Source: Verrucomicrobiota bacterium
GTDB taxonomy: Bacteria > Verrucomicrobiota > Verrucomicrobiia > Verrucomicrobiales > DEV007
Length of the DNA: 39,803 bases
Assembly (NCBI GenBank): GCA_030625775.1
Contig: DAOUQC010000043.1
Location: 1 to 39,803, forward strand
Direction of reading: 5' to 3'
Shown here: piece after piece, positions 8,319-39,803 of the stretch
Layout: each line of letters opens with the position of its first letter
Numbering within the stretch: the stretch's first letter is position 1
Position numbers and translations under genes: made by a program
The notes under the pieces: generated by a model
Databases searched by the model: none
Told to the model about the DNA's origin: nothing
What the model saw: the letters and a program-made list of their open reading frames with translations, nothing else

Positions 8319-9950
8319 TCACCCGTCGCTCACAGCAGCATGATCGGCCCCAACGATTTTTCCCTGATCGGGTTGGTATTTTTCGTTAGTTGACAAGGCC
8401 CCGGTCGGACAAGCTTCCACAACCTTGTCGGCCACATGTTCGAGCCCTTCCCACAGCGATTTATCCAAGGAAACCCCGGCAGTCACATCAAAACCCCGAC
8501 CAATAAAAGTAAAGCCATAAGTTTCATCCTCTTCCTTGGTGATCTGCACACACAGACTGCACTTGATACACTTACCGGGTTCGTAAACCGCTCCGGCATT
8601 CTGGTTGATGTGGGAATATTTTGCCCGCTGCTCCCCTTTGAACATCGATTGTTTGGCACCATATTTATCACTGTAAATCCGTAGCGAGCAATCATGCGAA
8701 GCACGGCAATCACAGTGCATGCAACGTTCACCCTCAAGCTGGACGTCAGCTTTATTATAACCGTCCACTTCAAGGTTATCCGGCGTCACCCGCGCAATCG
8801 GGTTGGCCCCGGTGACAAAAATATCGATCTCGCCTTCCTGCAGGCGACCCATCATGTGATTGTACATCTCAACGATGCCATCGATTTTTTCACCATTGGC
8901 ATACTGGCTGGCACAAGCCGCCACATCTTTCGCTGACTGGACAGCTTTCAGAATAGGCATCTTCGCCTTGGTCACACTGCCTGCGGCAAACACTCCGTCG
9001 ATTTCAGTTTTTGCAGTTTTCCTCTCAACCTTGATACCCTTTTTTTCATCCACGGGAATACCGATCGCTTCCAGTGACTCGTTTCCAATCTGTCCGCAGG
9101 TCAAAATAACAGCCGCATAATCTGCTTTCAAAGTATCAAGAGAAACCTGATCCCCGAGAGCATACCCTGTTTTAAACTCAACCCCCATCAGTTTCAATAC
9201 CTTCACTTCCCCCTCGATCACCCAGTTCTCCATCAGGCTTTGATCGTAATCCTCTTCACTGCGAAGCCGGCCTCCCACTTGCTCCTCTTTTTCAATAATG
9301 GTGCAGGCGTGCCCCTCCCGGGTCATGTAATAAGCAGTTGCCAGGCCTGTTGCGCCGGAACCCACAATAACAATTTTTTTACCGGAACTCTCTCGTACCG
9401 GTGGAATGTAAGGTGTTTCCCGTTTCAGATCCCAATCGGAAATAAAACGCGTCATGTGACGAATCGAAACTCCGTCATCATACTGCGCTCGACGGCAGCC
9501 CTTTTCACAAGGGGCGGTGCAGAAGCGTTCCAATATCGATGGGATCGCCATGTCTTCACGCACAGTAGCAATCGCATCCTCAAATTGATCGTCCTTGATC
9601 TCACGGATCATTTTGGGGATCTCGGAATGAATCGAACACAATCTCTGGCAAGGCGCTTCGCAGTCGCCCACGTGTTCACTGAGCAACAACTCCAGTGTTG
9701 ATTTGTGATGCGCAAGAACTTCATCACACTGGGTATCGATTTCCATGCCCTCGGCACACAGCGCAGAACACGCCGGATGGGTTCTGCCCGACGCCTGGTC
9801 CTTCACCGTGCACATCATGCAGGAGGTGAAATAATCATAACCGTCCTTGTAGCACATGATCGGAATCTCAATTCCGAGCTTTTTGGCGGCGTGGAAAATT
9901 GTTGTCGCTTCGTCCAACTCAATTTCCTGATTATCGATCGTCAGTTTCAT
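8319..9950 (-). CDS. [2Fe-2S]/FAD/[4Fe-4S] oxidoreductase, GltD-like without an NADPH domain
   Basis: This 543-residue cytoplasmic flavoprotein probably passes electrons between the NuoEF-like partner and a ferredoxin or the membrane proteins of its operon. Domains in order: a plant-type [2Fe-2S] domain with C33, C44, C47 and C61; a NuoG-like segment with H93, C97, C101 and C105; a GltD-type Fe-S linker with C144, C148 and C152; an FAD Rossmann fold with GSGATG at 197-202; a short return to GVFAAGSVTKA (319-329); the CMHCDC region (410-415); and a last [4Fe-4S] site with C461, C464, C467 and C514. In glutamate synthase small subunits a second, NADPH-binding Rossmann domain sits inside the FAD domain. 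Here that insertion is missing: only about 90 residues separate the two FAD halves. It is the last gene of the operon, 6 bases after the NuoEF gene. Confidence 0.85.
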   Translation of the reverse strand: MKLTIDNQEIELDEATTIFHAAKKLGIEIPIMCYKDGYDYFTSCMMCTVKDQASGRTHPACSALCAEGMEIDTQCDEVLAHHKSTLELLLSEHVGDCEAPCQRLCSIHSEIPKMIREIKDDQFEDAIATVREDMAIPSILERFCTAPCEKGCRRAQYDDGVSIRHMTRFISDWDLKRETPYIPPVRESSGKKIVIVGSGATGLATAYYMTREGHACTIIEKEEQVGGRLRSEEDYDQSLMENWVIEGEVKVLKLMGVEFKTGYALGDQVSLDTLKADYAAVILTCGQIGNESLEAIGIPVDEKKGIKVERKTAKTEIDGVFAAGSVTKAKMPILKAVQSAKDVAACASQYANGEKIDGIVEMYNHMMGRLQEGEIDIFVTGANPIARVTPDNLEVDGYNKADVQLEGERCMHCDCRASHDCSLRIYSDKYGAKQSMFKGEQRAKYSHINQNAGAVYEPGKCIKCSLCVQITKEEDETYGFTFIGRGFDVTAGVSLDKSLWEGLEHVADKVVEACPTGALSTNEKYQPDQGKIVGADHAAVSDG

Positions 9951-9956
9951 CGTTTT

Positions 9957-12386
9957 TTATACTTTCTTCAGATCAACAATGTGAATGGCATCCACCGGAC
10001 AAACCTGGAGGCAGATATCGCAACGTGTGCACATCGGATCCTGGATAACATGGTGGCGGTAAGGATTCATCGGAATGGCGTCCGTCGGGCAAAACTGGGC
10101 ACAACGCGTGCAGCCGATACAGGTATCGTCAATGTCATAACGAATCAAAGGCACACACTTTTTCGCGGTGCAAACCCCGTTGATATGATCCTCGAATTCT
10201 TCCCTGAAATACTTCATGCAGGACAACACCGGATTGGGGGCCGTCACACCCAGTCCGCAAAGACTCCCCTCTTTGGTGATGCCCGCGAGAGTCTCCAGTT
10301 TTTCGAGATCCCCCTTACGGCCTTTGCCTGCACAAAGTCGCTCAAGGATTTCCCCCATGCGCTTGGTGCCAATTCGACAGTGGGTACATTTTCCGCAGGA
10401 TTCATCCTGCAGGAAACGCATGAAATAATTGGCGATGTCAACCATGCAGTCAGTATCATCCAACACGACCATGCCACCCGATCCCATGATCGCGCCGACC
10501 TTGCTGATTTCTTCATAATCAACCGGGGTATCACACAAATACTCAGGCACACAACCACCGGAGGGTCCACCCATCAATACCGCTTTCAGTTTCCGCCCAT
10601 TGGGAATTCCTCCACCGATATCTTCGACAATCTCACGCAAGGTCATGCCCATCGGCACTTCGATCATGCCGCCGCGAACCACTTTTCCCGCCAGCGCAAA
10701 AGTTTTACTGCCTTTGCTTTTTTCCGTTCCAATAGCTGCAAATTTTTCCGCACCGTTACGAATGATCCACGAAATAGAGGCAAAAGTTTCAACATTGTTA
10801 ATCAGTGTCGGCTTGCCCCACAATCCGGATTGTGCAGGAAAAGGCGGCCGGAATCTCGGCATGCCGCGCCCCCCCTCGATCGCTGACATCAGAGCCGTTT
10901 CCTCACCACAGACAAAAGCTCCGGCCCCCTCGACCACTTCAAGCTTCAACTTCATTCCTGTACCGAGAATATTATCACCGAGATAACCATGCTCCTCGCA
11001 CTGGGCAATGGCATTCTGAATCCGCTCGGTGGCCAGTGGGTATTCCGCACGAATATAAAGCACTCCCTGCTCCGCTCCGATCACATAAGCCGCGATGACC
11101 ATGCCTTCGATCACACGGAAAGGGAACGACTCCAGGATCATGCGATCCATGAATGCCCCCGGATCCCCTTCATCTCCATTGCAAATGATGTATTTGGTTT
11201 CGTTTTCTTCGATGCGGGTAAACCTCCACTTCATTCCCGTCGGGAAACCAGCCCCACCACGTCCGCGCAATCCACTATCGAGCATCTCCTGGATGATGCC
11301 CTCGGGGTCATTCCCTTCGAGGCAGGATTTCAATGCCACAAAACCATCGTGTTTGATGTAGTCATCTATACTTTTAGGATCGAGCACCCCCGAGTGTTCA
11401 GTAACACAGCGTTGTTGAGGCCCTTCAAAACGCATATCCACTTTCGCCCGGACATCTTTTGAAAAGCGTGTCGGTGGATCCCAGTCTTCATCGGTGAGTA
11501 AATTCTCTAACAAATGAAACGCTTTTGCCGTCGTTTTTTGAAGCCAGTTTGCAGGTTGAAAATGCTTCAACAACAAACCTCTGACATCAGTGACCTTGAC
11601 CAGGCCATAACGATGTCTGCCCTGATTATAAACTGAAATTTCAATCAAAGGAGTTTCAAAAGAAGCCCCCCTGCAACCCACCTTCTTGATCTTCACTGGC
11701 AGGTTCATGCTACTGACCACCTGTTTCAGTTCTTGGTAAACCTTGAAGGCCCCACCCGCCGTACAACTGGAGCAAATGCAAATACGCACTTCGCCGCTTA
11801 CATTTTTCCGCTCATCCTCTTCTTCTTCGCTGCCACCTCCCGACATCGCGGCTTCATTGGCGAGAAAATCGTCGAGTAGTTCGGGAATTTTAAAAGCTTC
11901 CACTTCTCCGTAAATCGTATCATCCACCTGCACAACCGGTGCCAGCATACAACAGCCCAGGCAAGCCACTTCTTCGACAGTAAAAATGTCATCGGGGCTG
12001 GTGTGTTCACCTTCACCCACTTTCAGATGGCTGCGAAAAGTTTCATCCAAAACTGAAGCACCACTAACGTGACAAGCGGTGCCGATACAAGTTTTGACAA
12101 TGTGTTTACCTACCGGATGATGCCTGAACTGGGAGTAAAAGGTCGAAACCCCGGTAATGGAATCAGGTGTGATTTCAGTGATCTCAGCGATGTGCTCGAG
12201 AGCTGCCGGCGGCAACCAGTTCCATTTTTTTTGAATCGCTTGCAGCAAGGGAATCAGGTGCTTGGCCTCTTTCCCGATTCGCGACACCATTTCATCGACC
12301 GCTGACAGGTCTATACCAAGGTCCTCCTTGTCTGAACAAGTGCCCGCACAGCTTTTGCTTTCGGTTAAAGTCGCTTCTTCACTCAT
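9957..12386 (-). CDS. Fused NuoE-NuoF-type NADH oxidoreductase with C-terminal 2x[4Fe-4S] (HydB/Bfu-like)
   Basis: This 809-residue protein should oxidise NADH, or reduce NAD, at an FMN site. Residues 25-175 are NuoE-like, with [2Fe-2S] ligands C100, C105, C142 and C146. Residues 200-275 are a second thioredoxin-like domain with C203, C208 and C238, but Ser242 stands where the fourth Cys is expected. Residues 330-720 are NuoF-like: RGRGGAGFPTG at 374-384 and NGDEGDPGAF at 403-412 for FMN/NADH, CGEETAL at 493-499, and the N3 cluster C664, C667, C670 and C710. The tail holds two [4Fe-4S] sites (C756/759/762/766 and C786/789/792/796). This domain order is that of the B and C subunits of bifurcating hydrogenases (HydABC) and relatives, joined in one chain. 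Its start overlaps the stop of the propeller gene by 4 bases (ATGA). Confidence 0.92.
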   Translation of the reverse strand: MSEEATLTESKSCAGTCSDKEDLGIDLSAVDEMVSRIGKEAKHLIPLLQAIQKKWNWLPPAALEHIAEITEITPDSITGVSTFYSQFRHHPVGKHIVKTCIGTACHVSGASVLDETFRSHLKVGEGEHTSPDDIFTVEEVACLGCCMLAPVVQVDDTIYGEVEAFKIPELLDDFLANEAAMSGGGSEEEEDERKNVSGEVRICICSSCTAGGAFKVYQELKQVVSSMNLPVKIKKVGCRGASFETPLIEISVYNQGRHRYGLVKVTDVRGLLLKHFQPANWLQKTTAKAFHLLENLLTDEDWDPPTRFSKDVRAKVDMRFEGPQQRCVTEHSGVLDPKSIDDYIKHDGFVALKSCLEGNDPEGIIQEMLDSGLRGRGGAGFPTGMKWRFTRIEENETKYIICNGDEGDPGAFMDRMILESFPFRVIEGMVIAAYVIGAEQGVLYIRAEYPLATERIQNAIAQCEEHGYLGDNILGTGMKLKLEVVEGAGAFVCGEETALMSAIEGGRGMPRFRPPFPAQSGLWGKPTLINNVETFASISWIIRNGAEKFAAIGTEKSKGSKTFALAGKVVRGGMIEVPMGMTLREIVEDIGGGIPNGRKLKAVLMGGPSGGCVPEYLCDTPVDYEEISKVGAIMGSGGMVVLDDTDCMVDIANYFMRFLQDESCGKCTHCRIGTKRMGEILERLCAGKGRKGDLEKLETLAGITKEGSLCGLGVTAPNPVLSCMKYFREEFEDHINGVCTAKKCVPLIRYDIDDTCIGCTRCAQFCPTDAIPMNPYRHHVIQDPMCTRCDICLQVCPVDAIHIVDLKKV

Positions 12387-14179
12387 GGTCCGATCCGATA
12401 GAGGTTTTTCATGCCGCGCACATAGAGAGTGTCCCCCAGCGCCGCTGCCGTACTGACGACCACTTCACCCAGCTCAGGTTTACTGACTGACTTGTATTCC
12501 GCCCCCGGTTCAAAAATATGTGTCATGCCCAGCCGGTCAGCCATATAAACCCGCCCCTCTGCCAGAATAGGCGAAGCATAAAAGCCCTCATCGGTGTCTT
12601 CCGTCCAGACTTCCTCACCGGTCTTGGCGTTGTAACAAACCACGCCCCCATCTCCCAGACCTCCAATCAAATAATCACCCACTACCAGAGGAGTAGCGAT
12701 ACCAGGAATCATGTCCGAGGTTTCCCATACCACTTCATGTGTTTTGACATCGATCGCAGCTACTTTGATATAATCGGCCGCCACATACAGCAGACCGTTT
12801 GCATAAATTGGCGTCGGGGCAATTTCCCCCCCTTCCAGGCATTCAAGCCGCCAGAGTTCCTTGCCGTTATTCGGATCGTAGGAAATCACCATCGGGTCAG
12901 CAATCAGCACCACTTCGTCCCGCTCCCCTGCATTGAACAAAGCCGGCGATGACCAGGATGGACCAAAATCGCGAGGTGTTCTCCATCGTTTTTGCCCGGT
13001 AGCGACATCCAATCCAGTAAAAAAACTGTCCTCTTCGCGATCATATTGAATCAAGAGCAGGTTTTTATACACCACCAATGACGATGAATAACCGTAGGGA
13101 TTCTCTGGAACACCCAGATTTTTCGCCCAAACCTGATTGCCCTCAAAATCAAAAGCCGCCAGATCACCATTCGAGAAAATAGCAAACACCCGCACCCCGT
13201 CTGTAGCCATCGTAGCCGCAGCATAACCGGTGTCATCACTCACTTCCGGCGACTCCTCTACGCTCGGCGAACCAGGAACGTTCTCCACTGCTTTTACCCA
13301 GAGGATCTTACCGCTATTGGCATCAACACAATAAACCTCCCGGGTTTTTTCATCGGCTCCAGAGAGGAAAATTTTGTCTTCCCAAATAATAGGCGAGTTG
13401 AATCCTGGCAGTGGAATTTCCGTTTTCCAGCGAATGCCGTCCCCCGTCTCACCGTTCCATTCGGTAGGCAGGCCCTTCGTTTCAGCAAGACCAGCTCTGG
13501 GACCAAGAAATCCCGGCCAGTTTTTAAGCCGTTCTTCCGCAGTCGCGACAGGTTTGGCATCGGCTGCGGGTTTGGCAGCAGTCGCTGGAGCTGCTGGAGC
13601 AGCGGTTTTCCCGGAAGTTTCTTCCAAACCTCCCTCTTTACCGCCAGCAGTGCTGCCATCCGCTAAATCCACCTCAGCCAAATCCAGCGCACTCTCCCAC
13701 GGCAAAGCAATCATCAGGGCGAACCCAACCAAAACCAAACCCACTGATATAATGGATTTCCTGGCCCAGGCAGCCTTCTCTACCAAGTTATCCTTTGGAT
13801 CCCCAGAATCGGGCAAAGGCGGCAATGAGGTGTAAGCTTCGAGCGACTTAAAGGCAATCACCATCACCAACAAACCTCCCACCAACATGTAAATAGCTAC
13901 ACGGTTGAAACGCTGGCTGGTAAAAAAGGCCCGCCGGGAGATATGATCCAGCTCACGGATTTCCTCACGCAGAGCCTGATCGTTCGGATTGGTTTTGAGC
14001 TCCTCGACCAGACGTTGCAAAGCTGGGGAGTGAATCGGGTCCGTTTTTTTCAAGCTAAGGTTATTTGCTATCAACAAAGCACAAACCACCAATGCAAACA
14101 CACCTGATACCATCGCAGCTCCTTTAATGAGCTGATAAGGCAGGGAAGTGGTGCTTTTTTCATATTCTACAACTCTCAT
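12383..14179 (-). CDS. Three-span membrane protein with extracytoplasmic PQQ-like beta-propeller
   Basis: This 598-residue protein has hydrophobic helices at about residues 20-40, 94-111 and 143-161, then an Ala/Pro/Lys-rich linker (about 190-213), then a propeller to the end. Repeat blades end with PQQ-like motifs such as SGKILWVK, TGQKRWRT, NGKELWRLE and TGEEVWTED. With the N-terminus inside, as the basic loop between helices 2 and 3 suggests, the propeller faces the periplasm. The repeats resemble BamB-type scaffolds as much as true quinoproteins; I see no convincing PQQ-binding active site, so cofactor content is unknown. Being locked between a polyferredoxin gene (42 bases upstream) and the NADH-oxidising subunit (4-base overlap) points to a role in the redox complex, as a docking, sensing or electron-accepting domain. 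Confidence 0.85.
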   Translation of the reverse strand: MRVVEYEKSTTSLPYQLIKGAAMVSGVFALVVCALLIANNLSLKKTDPIHSPALQRLVEELKTNPNDQALREEIRELDHISRRAFFTSQRFNRVAIYMLVGGLLVMVIAFKSLEAYTSLPPLPDSGDPKDNLVEKAAWARKSIISVGLVLVGFALMIALPWESALDLAEVDLADGSTAGGKEGGLEETSGKTAAPAAPATAAKPAADAKPVATAEERLKNWPGFLGPRAGLAETKGLPTEWNGETGDGIRWKTEIPLPGFNSPIIWEDKIFLSGADEKTREVYCVDANSGKILWVKAVENVPGSPSVEESPEVSDDTGYAAATMATDGVRVFAIFSNGDLAAFDFEGNQVWAKNLGVPENPYGYSSSLVVYKNLLLIQYDREEDSFFTGLDVATGQKRWRTPRDFGPSWSSPALFNAGERDEVVLIADPMVISYDPNNGKELWRLECLEGGEIAPTPIYANGLLYVAADYIKVAAIDVKTHEVVWETSDMIPGIATPLVVGDYLIGGLGDGGVVCYNAKTGEEVWTEDTDEGFYASPILAEGRVYMADRLGMTHIFEPGAEYKSVSKPELGEVVVSTAAALGDTLYVRGMKNLYRIGP

Positions 14180-36642: not shown

Positions 36643-37728
36643 CTAATTATCCGTTTTCCCAGCTTTGAACTCTTCCCTTAAAATAGCTGCCGCAGCCGCT
36701 TCATTACACAATTTTTCGTAGGCTTCATCCACAGGGACAACTGCTCCTGAACCGGGTGCAAACCCGCAATCGGGATTCAGAGTGATTCGAGCAGGATCGA
36801 TTACCTTCGCAGCCAAACGAACACGTTCAGCAATCGTTTCAGGAGAATCGATGCAACCTGGAGTCACATCCACACAGCCCAATCCGATCTCCAAATCCTC
36901 GCGTAAATTCTTAAGCACCTCAAAATCGCCTGCACCAGGTGTGGTGAATTCCATCGTCAGATGATTCACTTTCAAACGGTTCAACTGTTTGAGAATCTGA
37001 TCAAAACCACCCTTGAAGCCAACATCACCACGAGCGCGGCCACCGGCACGACGGCAGAGATGTTCGGCAAATTTTGCGTCCCCTGTTCCTTCGATAATAT
37101 CGTTCACGACTTCAACGGCGAAGTCAGCGGCCTTGTCGGGATTGTCATAACCCGCACGCACTTCTGAATCGACAAAGAGGCAAAGATGCGGGTCATCAAT
37201 CTGGATGATGTCAGCACCCGCTTCAATCAAGAGCTCGACTTCGCGACGAAGGATAGGCACACAATCACGGACAAAATCGTCGCGATTCGGGTAGGCCAGT
37301 GCCGATTTTTCCGGATCCCACATCCGCTCGCCCAGCAGAGCGGGCGAAGGCAGAGTCGCCTTGATTTTTTTAGTCGTGATCGATTGCACAAACTGAATTT
37401 CACGGGCGATAAATCCCGGGGTTTTCGGTGACAGCTTATCAACAACCACAGTCATCGGGCGTCCATCAGCAGGATTAACGCTCAGCTCAAAGCCATGGGC
37501 GAGTTCGGCGATGACTCCAATGTAGGATTTGCGTCGCCATTCACCGTCGGTGATCACGTCGACTCCGGCTTGTTCCTGAAGGGCAACCACATAGCGGATC
37601 GCGGCGTCCATGCGTCTCTGTGCATCTTCTGCAGAAATTTTAATATCGCCAAAAATCAGGTCCTTGACGAATTCAGGTCTTGGCATCGAGCCAACAACGG
37701 AGGTGGGGAATAAATCTGACGAGCTCAT
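36643..37728 (-). CDS. MetE C-terminal-like (cobalamin-independent) methyltransferase homologue
   Basis: This 361-residue cytoplasmic protein is a single TIM barrel of the UROD/MetE superfamily. The zinc site is visible: H223 and C225 in AEHLCRR, E260 in TMEFTTP and C321 in LNPDCGF. ADIIQIDDP at 172-180 and VVGSMPRP at the N-terminus are typical. Family members transfer a methyl group to homocysteine (MetE, archaeal MetE-like) or to other thiols. It lacks the N-terminal half of full MetE, so it cannot be assumed to use folate. Its start ATG shares one base with the stop of the cytidylyltransferase gene (TAATG), so it is translationally coupled to it. This is an odd pairing, and the substrate is open. 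Confidence 0.88.
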   Translation of the reverse strand: MSSSDLFPTSVVGSMPRPEFVKDLIFGDIKISAEDAQRRMDAAIRYVVALQEQAGVDVITDGEWRRKSYIGVIAELAHGFELSVNPADGRPMTVVVDKLSPKTPGFIAREIQFVQSITTKKIKATLPSPALLGERMWDPEKSALAYPNRDDFVRDCVPILRREVELLIEAGADIIQIDDPHLCLFVDSEVRAGYDNPDKAADFAVEVVNDIIEGTGDAKFAEHLCRRAGGRARGDVGFKGGFDQILKQLNRLKVNHLTMEFTTPGAGDFEVLKNLREDLEIGLGCVDVTPGCIDSPETIAERVRLAAKVIDPARITLNPDCGFAPGSGAVVPVDEAYEKLCNEAAAAAILREEFKAGKTDN

Positions 37729-38483
37729 TATTTGTGGTTCCAGTTTGTTTGGGCGTATTCGAAATCCTGCTGGGTATCGATCTCAATATATTCGTTCGAG
37801 GTGTCGGCATGGCGCATCTCGACCTTATGTTCGATCATTTCCTGCAAAAGGTGAATGAAATACGACTTCTCGAAAACAGCCGCTTCACGGAATTTTTTTC
37901 CTGCAAACTCAGTGCGACAGCGGGCATAATGTTTTTTCAGAAACTCTGCACCGGCTAGGGAAAATTTTGCAACACCAGTGTATTCACCCCAGGCATCATC
38001 GTTTTCAATCTCGCGGTGAATCCGGGTGATGACTCCCTTGTCCGTTGTCACTTTCTCAGCGTCATCAGCCGGATGCTCGGTACGGTCTGCGTAGCGTGCG
38101 GCCCAACCGGTATCGACCGACAAGGTGATATCGTGTTCACTTTCCAATAAACCGGCGATGAGATTGGCAGAATAAAGCGTGTCTGAATAACAACAGATGA
38201 AAGGCTCGTCCATCAAGTCCTCTGCATACATCAGTGAAGCCAGGATGTTATTATTCGGCCAGTCATCATTATGGCGAAAAGTGAAGTTCGGATGTTGCTC
38301 GCGAACCGTATCGATCAGGTAACCTCCGATGAAACAAATATCGTCGATCCCGTTTTCAGCAAAGGCTTCGATGTTCCAGTCCAAGATTCGTTTGTCCTGA
38401 ACTCTGGCAAAGCACTTGGGTTCGTTTTCTGTGGTTGGCATCAGACGACTGCCGCGTCCCGCTCCGATAAAAATGACTCTCAT
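37728..38483 (-). CDS. LicC/PntC-like nucleotidyltransferase (sugar- or phosphocholine/phosphonate-type)
   Basis: This 251-residue cytoplasmic enzyme uses a nucleoside triphosphate, likely CTP, to activate a phosphate or phosphonate head group. GAGRGSR at residues 7-13 binds the nucleotide, K23 follows in EPKCF, and D101 in CYSDTLYSA is the likely metal ligand. DWPNNNILASLMYAED (74-89) and GEYTGVAKFS (166-175) recall phosphocholine cytidylyltransferase LicC and the aminoethylphosphonate enzyme PntC. EIDTQQDFEYA (234-244) is the end of the fold. Sugar-1-phosphate activation (GT-A type) is an alternative. It lies 4 bases after the OPA transporter gene and overlaps the MetE-like gene. Confidence 0.82.
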   Translation of the reverse strand: MRVIFIGAGRGSRLMPTTENEPKCFARVQDKRILDWNIEAFAENGIDDICFIGGYLIDTVREQHPNFTFRHNDDWPNNNILASLMYAEDLMDEPFICCYSDTLYSANLIAGLLESEHDITLSVDTGWAARYADRTEHPADDAEKVTTDKGVITRIHREIENDDAWGEYTGVAKFSLAGAEFLKKHYARCRTEFAGKKFREAAVFEKSYFIHLLQEMIEHKVEMRHADTSNEYIEIDTQQDFEYAQTNWNHK

Positions 38484-38487
38484 AAAA

Positions 38488-39774
38488 TTAGGTTATTTCT
38501 GACTTTCGCTCGCCGCTGCGTTTGTTCCACAGGAAAGCACTGATTACCGCAGCTGCAAATGCACATCCCGCCCAGAACTTGAGTCCGGTTTCCCAACCGT
38601 AAGCGTCCACAACGTGACCCGTTACGTAGTCCCCGGAAAAAGCGCCCATATAACCCACAAAATTGACAAATCCGACCGCTGCCGCAGCTGCTCCCCCGCG
38701 AGCAAGATCCATCGGAGCCGTGCCGACAAGTAAAACCTGGGGTCCGTAGATGCAGAAGCCGATCAAAACCAATAACACCATCGGCATTATCGAGCTGCCT
38801 CCCGCTGTGACCACTTTACTGTAGATCAGGGTAAGAACACCCAGCGCGGTCAGCAATACGGCAATGGCAGGGGCTGCCCGCCCTCCGAACCAGCGATCCG
38901 TAACCCAACCTGACAGTAAGGCGCCTGCGATTCCCCCCAGGGGTAATACCGCATATTTCAGAGCTGATTTGGCAATTTCTCCTCCCTGGGTTTCGATCAA
39001 ATGCGCAAGTCCCCAGTCGAGGAAGCCATAGCGGCAGGCATTGAGCAGACCCAAGGACACAGCGAGAAACCACAACCAGGGATTACTCAAGGTCAGTAGG
39101 ATATTTTTTCCAATACTGCCTGTTTTTTTGATTTTCGGAGAGGTTCCCTGCTCCGTGTCCAATGCACTGGTTTGCGGAGGTGACTCCTTCATGAAGATCA
39201 GCATGTGCATACAGCTGATGGCAAATAGAACTGCCGGAGCGTAAAATGCACCACGCCAACCAAAAAACTGCACCGAAAACCCGGCAAGAACAAAAGTGAA
39301 TGCAGCCGTCGCCTGATAGCCCGTGCCGATGATTCCCACCGCACGGCCACGTTTCTCAACCGGGAACCAGTTCGCGGCCACCCGCATACAGGGTGTCCAA
39401 CCAAGCGCCTGGAAGTACCCGTTGCAGGCCCATATGAAGATCAAAAAATACAGTGCTGTTCCAAAACCGAATAAGACGTTCAGCAGAGCTGACATCAACA
39501 TACCAACAGTCAACAACTTGCGCGCCGAAAATTTTTCCGCAAGCTGACCGTTGATCAATTGCCCAAAACCATAGGCCAATTTTAATCCGCCAAGGATCAG
39601 TCCGATTTGTGCTTTGCTGAATCCAAACTCAGCTTCGATGCCCGGAATCGCTGCTGAAATATTCGTGCGACAAAAATAAAATGAACCATAAGTGATCCAC
39701 AAAACCCACATCACTCCAAACTCAGCTCGGTGGAAAGGCTCTTTGAAATAGGTGCTACTTTTGGGGGAAGACAT
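38488..39774 (-). CDS. OPA-type MFS transporter (organophosphate/phosphonate candidate)
   Basis: From the ATG at 39774 this is 428 residues with 12 helices; the frame also opens at a TTG at 39792, close to the window edge. The helix-1 region WITYGSFYFCRTNISAAIPGI and LGWTPCMRVAANWFPVEKRGRAVGI resemble the GlpT/UhpT organophosphate:phosphate antiporter group. In this group helix 1 carries an Arg that contacts the substrate phosphate; the Arg here (FCRTN) fits. The substrate is unknown; glycerol-3-phosphate, sugar phosphates and phosphonates are all possible. It is the first visible gene of the operon with the cytidylyltransferase and MetE-like genes. The promoter is beyond or at the right edge. 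Confidence 0.87.
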   Translation of the reverse strand: MSSPKSSTYFKEPFHRAEFGVMWVLWITYGSFYFCRTNISAAIPGIEAEFGFSKAQIGLILGGLKLAYGFGQLINGQLAEKFSARKLLTVGMLMSALLNVLFGFGTALYFLIFIWACNGYFQALGWTPCMRVAANWFPVEKRGRAVGIIGTGYQATAAFTFVLAGFSVQFFGWRGAFYAPAVLFAISCMHMLIFMKESPPQTSALDTEQGTSPKIKKTGSIGKNILLTLSNPWLWFLAVSLGLLNACRYGFLDWGLAHLIETQGGEIAKSALKYAVLPLGGIAGALLSGWVTDRWFGGRAAPAIAVLLTALGVLTLIYSKVVTAGGSSIMPMVLLVLIGFCIYGPQVLLVGTAPMDLARGGAAAAAVGFVNFVGYMGAFSGDYVTGHVVDAYGWETGLKFWAGCAFAAAVISAFLWNKRSGERKSEIT

Positions 39775-39803
39775 CAATGAGAGGCCATCCAATCAGAACT
39801 TGG

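Follow-up and report, generated by a model that had tools for sequence, protein, structure and literature searches.

Cytidylyl activation of a phosphonate coupled to methyl chemistry is known from fosfomycin-type biosynthesis (Fom1/Fom3), in which methylation of a cytidine monophosphate (CMP)-phosphonate depends on phosphoenolpyruvate (PEP) mutase and is carried out by a radical S-adenosylmethionine (SAM) methylase. Organophosphates are exchanged by the organophosphate:phosphate (OPA) antiporters GlpT, UhpT and PgtP of the major facilitator superfamily (MFS). Cytidylyltransferases of the COG1213 type serve various acceptors, namely phosphocholine (LicC), 2-aminoethylphosphonate (PntC), inositol-1-phosphate (inositol-1-phosphate cytidylyltransferase, IPCT), phosphoglutamine (Cj1416) and phosphoglycerate (CpgD); that acceptors vary within this fold follows from the use of phosphoglycerate by CpgD and the promiscuity of Cj1416 in vitro, both as described in PMC12275187. 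Four families of core methionine synthases, MesA–MesD, are listed in PMC7857596. Here we describe a locus in which relatives of such proteins stand side by side: three minus-strand open reading frames (ORFs) spanning 36643-39774 of the window (i.e. the whole stretch of 39 803 nucleotides analysed, contig DAOUQC010000043.1 of an uncultured Verrucomicrobia-like bacterium) code for an OPA transporter, a cytidylyltransferase (CT) and a MetE-like protein. The proteins are divergent members of known families whose combination appears undescribed; no description of an OPA/CT/MetE-like gene set was found in the literature searched. Our tentative proposal is that they form a compact salvage pathway, in which uptake would be followed by activation with cytidine triphosphate (CTP) and by attack of zinc-bound homocysteine on the resulting conjugate.

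An earlier note, made from the sequence of the window, had named these three families and proposed an operon, and both the ORFs and their matches bear it out: 4 bases separate the OPA and CT genes, and the CT and MetE-like genes overlap by 1 base (TAATG; Table 1). Conservation of the arrangement was analysed at 83 loci: the window, L060, L068 and the best 80 of 289 CT relatives from a contig scan. At 79 of them the CT gene has the MetE-like gene immediately after it, so the orthologues are not scattered and the note was right to treat the genes as belonging together; at the other loci (L089, L099, L129 and L143) the genome has its MetE-like orthologue elsewhere (E = 1.9e-139 to 3.3e-198). CT and MetE-like are found together in 83/83 genomes, and their genes are one unit, not a chance adjacency. 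CT orthologues are sporadic, being present in 3/74 genomes of the family (81-100% identity), 8/384 of the class (E<1e-90) and 6/387 of the phylum (E<1e-30). A separate search of 337 genomes of the phylum with a profile of MetE-like gave three that scored in full (at least 620 bits), each of them CT-positive; the fourth match scored 261 bits and is a relative of 35% identity, in another context. According to record labels, the phyla represented are Planctomycetota, Verrucomicrobiota, Poribacteria, Hydrogenedentota and Proteobacteria.

In 45/83 loci the pair is directly preceded by the OPA gene, which lies 2.2 kb upstream in one more. Seven of 286 class genomes have an OPA orthologue of at least 570 bits; six of these also contain CT, and the seventh (G111) lacks a MetE-like gene at E<=1e-40. 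Among 27 searched genomes with no OPA gene beside the pair, a relative of OPA is encoded in trans in six (E<=1e-80) and scores at least 630 bits in three of these. Protein distances between loci are correlated for the three proteins (Spearman 0.58, 0.53 and 0.73, against a permutation maximum of 0.19), a correlation also expected from shared ancestry alone. Plasmid homologues are distant (18 records for CT and 4 for MetE-like, all <60% identity).

Table 1. Genes of the OPA/CT/MetE-like module in the window
Feature	Coordinates	Strand	Remarks
OPA-type (GlpT/PgtP-like) MFS transporter, predicted for organophosphate or phosphonate	38488..39774	-	428 aa, ATG at 39774
COG1213-type (LicC/PntC-like) cytidylyltransferase (CT)	37728..38483	-	251 aa
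Core MetE-like zinc enzyme without the folate-binding N-terminal half	36643..37728	-	361 aa

By its matches to PF07690 (171 bits) and to PDB 1pw4 (GlpT; E=4.9e-50), the transporter is a divergent OPA relative outside every curated OPA subfamily model (235 bits against TIGR00881, cut-off 408; 209 bits against the GlpT model, cut-off 633). It shares with GlpT, UhpT and PgtP the MFS architecture and paired arginines, R42 and R254 (RYGxxDW), which are kept in all of the 46 OPA orthologues with letters there and which we take to be the equivalents of GlpT R45 and R269; it differs from them in those low scores and in the region presumed to correspond to GlpT His165, which reads GTGYQ. An alternative TTG start lies upstream of the ATG, at 39792.

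In proteobacteria the place of OPA is taken by a PhnCDEE phosphonate ATP-binding cassette (ABC) transporter (4 loci) or by a Ugp-like transporter (2 genomes). At L084, L094 and L100 a convergent PhnCDEE-type cluster follows the CT/MetE-like pair, and at L090 a cluster of this type lies ahead of the pair, in the same orientation; at L094, PhnC and PhnE pass equivalog cut-offs and the binding protein passes a subfamily cut-off. In the L143 genome the MetE-like gene is followed by genes best named UgpC, UgpA, UgpE and UgpB (all below cut-off) and then by a gene for a calcineurin-like phosphodiesterase (PDB 2zo9/3d03, 1.7e-27), while at L109 genes for a Ugp-like ATPase and permease are divergent from the pair. 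Since these transporters stand in for OPA, an imported organophosphate or phosphonate likely feeds the pair, which agrees with the type of transporter expected in the earlier note; the most informative pointer to that feed is that three unrelated types of phosphorus-compound importer occur beside the same two enzymes. A fourth conserved gene was sought among 114 first-neighbour genes (a non-random, heuristically picked set, hand-pruned from 131 drawn of 148, with the PafA gene of L085 added by hand), and no Pfam family occurred in more than 4 of the 114. Phosphodiesterase or phosphatase genes are found near L085, L111 and L128, and another beside an isolated OPA gene in L168.

The closest PDB sequences to CT are LicC (1jyk, 7.4e-11) and then PntC (6pd1, 6e-7). 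Its AlphaFold2 model (predicted local distance difference test score, pLDDT, 94) best matches PntC (VIA Z 28.2; 229 residues, 2.0 A), LicC (25.9) and IPCT (25.4); the top five structural rows are these three enzymes, every one a cytidylyltransferase as the earlier note had anticipated, and sugar nucleotidyltransferases score 24.4 or less, a small margin. The nucleotidyltransferase fold and signature (GxG..R, PK and a metal-binding Asp) are present, and residues G11, R13, K23, D101, E234 and D236 are invariant (83/83). From family and fold we infer that CT uses CTP and a phospho-substrate.

The amine-facing acids given in PMC6697681 are E104 in PntC and D105 in LicC, with a second one, E196. 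In the alignment the first position is an invariant tyrosine (Tyr99) in the CT family, and E196 falls on residue 200, a Glu in 70/83 (equivalence counted by hand). These residues bear on a narrower version of the salvage pathway, in which phosphocholine or a related methylated-amine phosphate would be converted by CT to cytidine diphosphate (CDP)-choline, to be demethylated by the MetE-like enzyme for methionine. LicC being the best PDB sequence match of CT, the Ugp-like transporter and phosphodiesterases near some modules, and the invariant aromatic residues of CT (W75, Y99, W127 and Y131) and MetE-like (W64, Y69, W137 and F185), which could hold a quaternary amine, are all in its favour; nevertheless, given Tyr99 at the amine-facing position and arginines (R135, R191, R227 and R231) among the family-specific residues of MetE-like, we consider phosphocholine an unlikely feed.

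CT thus resembles the COG1213 cytidylyltransferases in its fold, catalytic signature and closest structures. It also has a lid motif (D-W-R-P-D-E) in common with 28-30% identical homologues that sit in phosphoglutamine-type clusters, together with genes for a PEP-utilising kinase and for a protein of the gamma-glutamyl-GABA-hydrolase family; in L061 this last protein matches gamma-glutamyl-CDP-amidate hydrolase. The differences lie in that low identity, in Tyr99 replacing the amine-contact residue of PntC and LicC, and in the partner, which here is a MetE-like enzyme rather than a transferase, PEP mutase or glutamine kinase. As a separate observation, two genomes of the host's family (G035, L061:8451-12944; G036, L062:8219-12709) carry a CT paralogue of ~29% identity and a 1021-aa ORF with a CT-like N-terminal part, between which, in L061, the hydrolase match is located; judged by their gene content, these are probably phosphoramidate-type clusters outside Campylobacter.

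The MetE-like protein consists of the catalytic barrel only (PF01717, 105 bits) and is under every NCBIfam cut-off; against TIGR01371, which describes full-length two-barrel MetE, it scores 79 bits (cut-off 930). The structure nearest to its model (pLDDT 88) is 3rpd (Z 37.4; 326 residues, 2.5 A), followed by Thermotoga maritima MetE (35.1). Zinc ligands H223, C225, E260 and C321 (HCEC) are conserved in 79/79 sequences, as are the homocysteine residues S14 (77/77), E63 (78/78) and D178 (79/79) in those with letters at the position, all of which supports the MetE-like identity suggested in the note. These residues were matched by alignment to E. coli MetE, for which PMC7857596 gives H641, C643, E665 and C726 (zinc) and S433, E484 and D599 (homocysteine); the same source describes 3rpd as a MesD. 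The whole set is also found in six outgroup PF01717 proteins. H181, C183 and R227 are specific to the MetE-like family in comparison with these six, and W64, R135 and F185 occur otherwise, among the proteins compared, solely in the 35% relative. In sequence, the family-specific residues are near the homocysteine and zinc positions; the model is poorly ordered in a loop (228-236, which includes R231 and R233) that follows the zinc ligands. On these alignments, the protein resembles a methionine synthase in its thiol half and not in the remainder.

MetE-like shares with MetE and MesA–MesD a single catalytic barrel, the residues for zinc and homocysteine and the fold of 3rpd, and differs from them in its scores under methionine-synthase cut-offs, in its family-specific residues and in its pairing with CT and an importer of phosphorus compounds. 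It could be another methionine synthase of the ordinary kind, one that takes its methyl group from an unrelated donor and is only co-regulated with a CT and transporter serving some other step. The complete zinc and homocysteine set would fit, and so would the existence of four core families (PMC7857596), but the strict pairing with CT in every one of the 83 genomes and the family-specific residues alongside the conserved set make this rather improbable. A housekeeping methionine synthase, a possibility raised in the earlier note, is ruled out by the sub-cut-off scores and by separate host candidates, i.e. a 785-aa ORF with MetE matches elsewhere and a 1187-aa MetH ORF; the host has several PF01717 proteins, of which MetE-like is one. 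A further alternative comes from epoxyalkane:coenzyme M transferase, a MetE-type enzyme that conjugates epoxides, and from the import of fosfomycin by OPA permeases: the module might conjugate a thiol to a reactive phosphonate such as an epoxide. MetE-type zinc thiolate chemistry, as expected from the conserved residues, would allow it; however, an importer of its own is unexpected in a detoxification module and the homocysteine-binding residues are conserved, so that we regard it as most improbable.

Three loci with relatives of MetE-like may be mentioned here. L166:7755-11584 (G573) contains a 35% relative with the zinc and homocysteine residues kept; the operon in which it lies also encodes an NMT1/THI5-type ABC transporter. 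L193:4496-6715, on contig C77 of the host, has a PF01717 paralogue (22% identical) followed by an ORF that is UroD-like by eye. At L053:1189-2269 (G054; also L070) a frameshift splits the MetE-like gene in a short contig, perhaps through an assembly error.

The earlier note had offered decoration of a surface glycan or lipid as an alternative function, and the host genome argues otherwise. In the host assembly (4.88 Mb, 158 contigs, 96% complete, the scope of the following negatives) no match to LicD was found, the C-P lyase protein PhnJ was not found, and the one PEP mutase match scored 26.9 bits (cut-off 31.5), with none next to the module. The lack of LicD and C-P lyase, and of any convincing PEP mutase, argues against both surface decoration and phosphonate synthesis; Pnt- or Lic-type decoration as such was rejected for want of LicD and of a PEP mutase over the cut-off, as was a resident C-P lyase context because PhnJ is absent. 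The lack of a PEP mutase over the cut-off also sets the module apart from Fom1/Fom3. It might still be imagined that a CDP-head group destined for lipids or for decoration of the surface is produced by CT and tailored by MetE-like, as the CT relatives LicC, PntC and CpgD are described as serving decoration or lipids (PMC6697681 and PMC12275187). Yet importers recur beside the module and no transferase or glycan gene does, which, with the host negatives, leaves this version only a slim chance.

The salvage pathway would proceed in three steps. The OPA permease or, elsewhere, the PhnCDEE or Ugp-like ABC transporter would import a small organophosphate or phosphonate, as the replacement of one transporter by another suggests. 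CT, judging from its family and fold, would couple the imported compound with CTP, so that pyrophosphate would be released and a CDP- or CMP-conjugate formed. MetE-like, to judge from its conserved residues and the gene coupling, would bind homocysteine as a zinc thiolate, which would attack a carbon of the conjugate, most simply a methyl group. This attack would yield methionine (or an S-alkyl homocysteine) together with a cytidine nucleotide, through which the phosphorus would enter the nucleotide pool. Such a pathway would need no more than one transporter and two enzymes, which would account for the small set of genes.

A transferable methyl is needed, and methylated candidates, i.e. phosphocholine, methyl phosphate and methylphosphonate, could supply it; none is strongly favoured. 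In one specific form of the proposal, cytidylylation itself creates the methyl donor, zinc-bound homocysteine demethylating CDP-O-CH3 or CMP-methylphosphonate. CDP-O-CH3 may be compared with the phosphotriesters that Ada demethylates by means of a zinc thiolate; we give this form of the proposal a small chance. If it were true, methyl and phosphorus would both be assimilated without C-P lyase, and MetE-like would make up a fifth family of core methionine synthases, one whose donor is activated by a nucleotide. More generally, the salvage pathway would represent a two-enzyme route, present in several phyla, by which activation with CTP and the chemistry of homocysteine give access to an environmental phosphorus compound; another core MetE family would be added, along with a case of organic-phosphorus use (perhaps methylphosphonate or phosphocholine) outside C-P lyase. 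Many metagenome-assembled genomes carry the module.

Several points weigh against the salvage pathway. We know of no precedent for a nucleotide-activated methyl donor. An importer gene was not seen nearby at about half of the loci, and 21 of the 27 genomes searched had no OPA relative in trans at E<=1e-80. In PMC7857596, core MetE enzymes are thought to receive the methyl group that they transfer from corrinoid proteins, except that the donor of MesD is given as unidentified. Finally, at two near-identical poribacterial loci (L124:7205-8287 and L136:7376-8458) a myo-inositol-1-phosphate synthase gene (mycothiol_INO1-like) lies upstream of the pair, in place of an importer, and an FAA-hydrolase-family gene lies downstream; this points to another substrate class. 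Inositol phosphate, imported or made locally, might accordingly be activated by CT for an osmolyte or lipid, and IPCT is indeed among the nearest structures to CT. A CDP-inositol route is nonetheless very unlikely, as the synthase was not seen at the other loci examined (first-neighbour tally) and as MetE-like would be left with no role.

The surroundings of the operon were also inspected. The host contig (C94) ends at 39803, so that the upstream side of the operon is beyond reach in this genome; a riboswitch above the operon was sought with Rfam in the window and at five loci, and the sole matches were two tRNA-like ones, in L085. The genes on the other flank (an AlkZ-related protein, a DUF4838 protein and a GDSL lipase) are unrelated. 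In a sister clade of OPA (32-34% identical; L169:3667-6134 and L170:7058-9437) the gene overlaps the downstream gene by a few bases; in L169 the latter passes the Pfam HAD hydrolase cut-off, which suggests organophosphate import followed by dephosphorylation. Elsewhere in the window, at 8319-14179, an operon-like run codes for a Fer2/Fer4 FAD oxidoreductase, a fused NuoE/NuoF-like protein and a PQQ-repeat protein.

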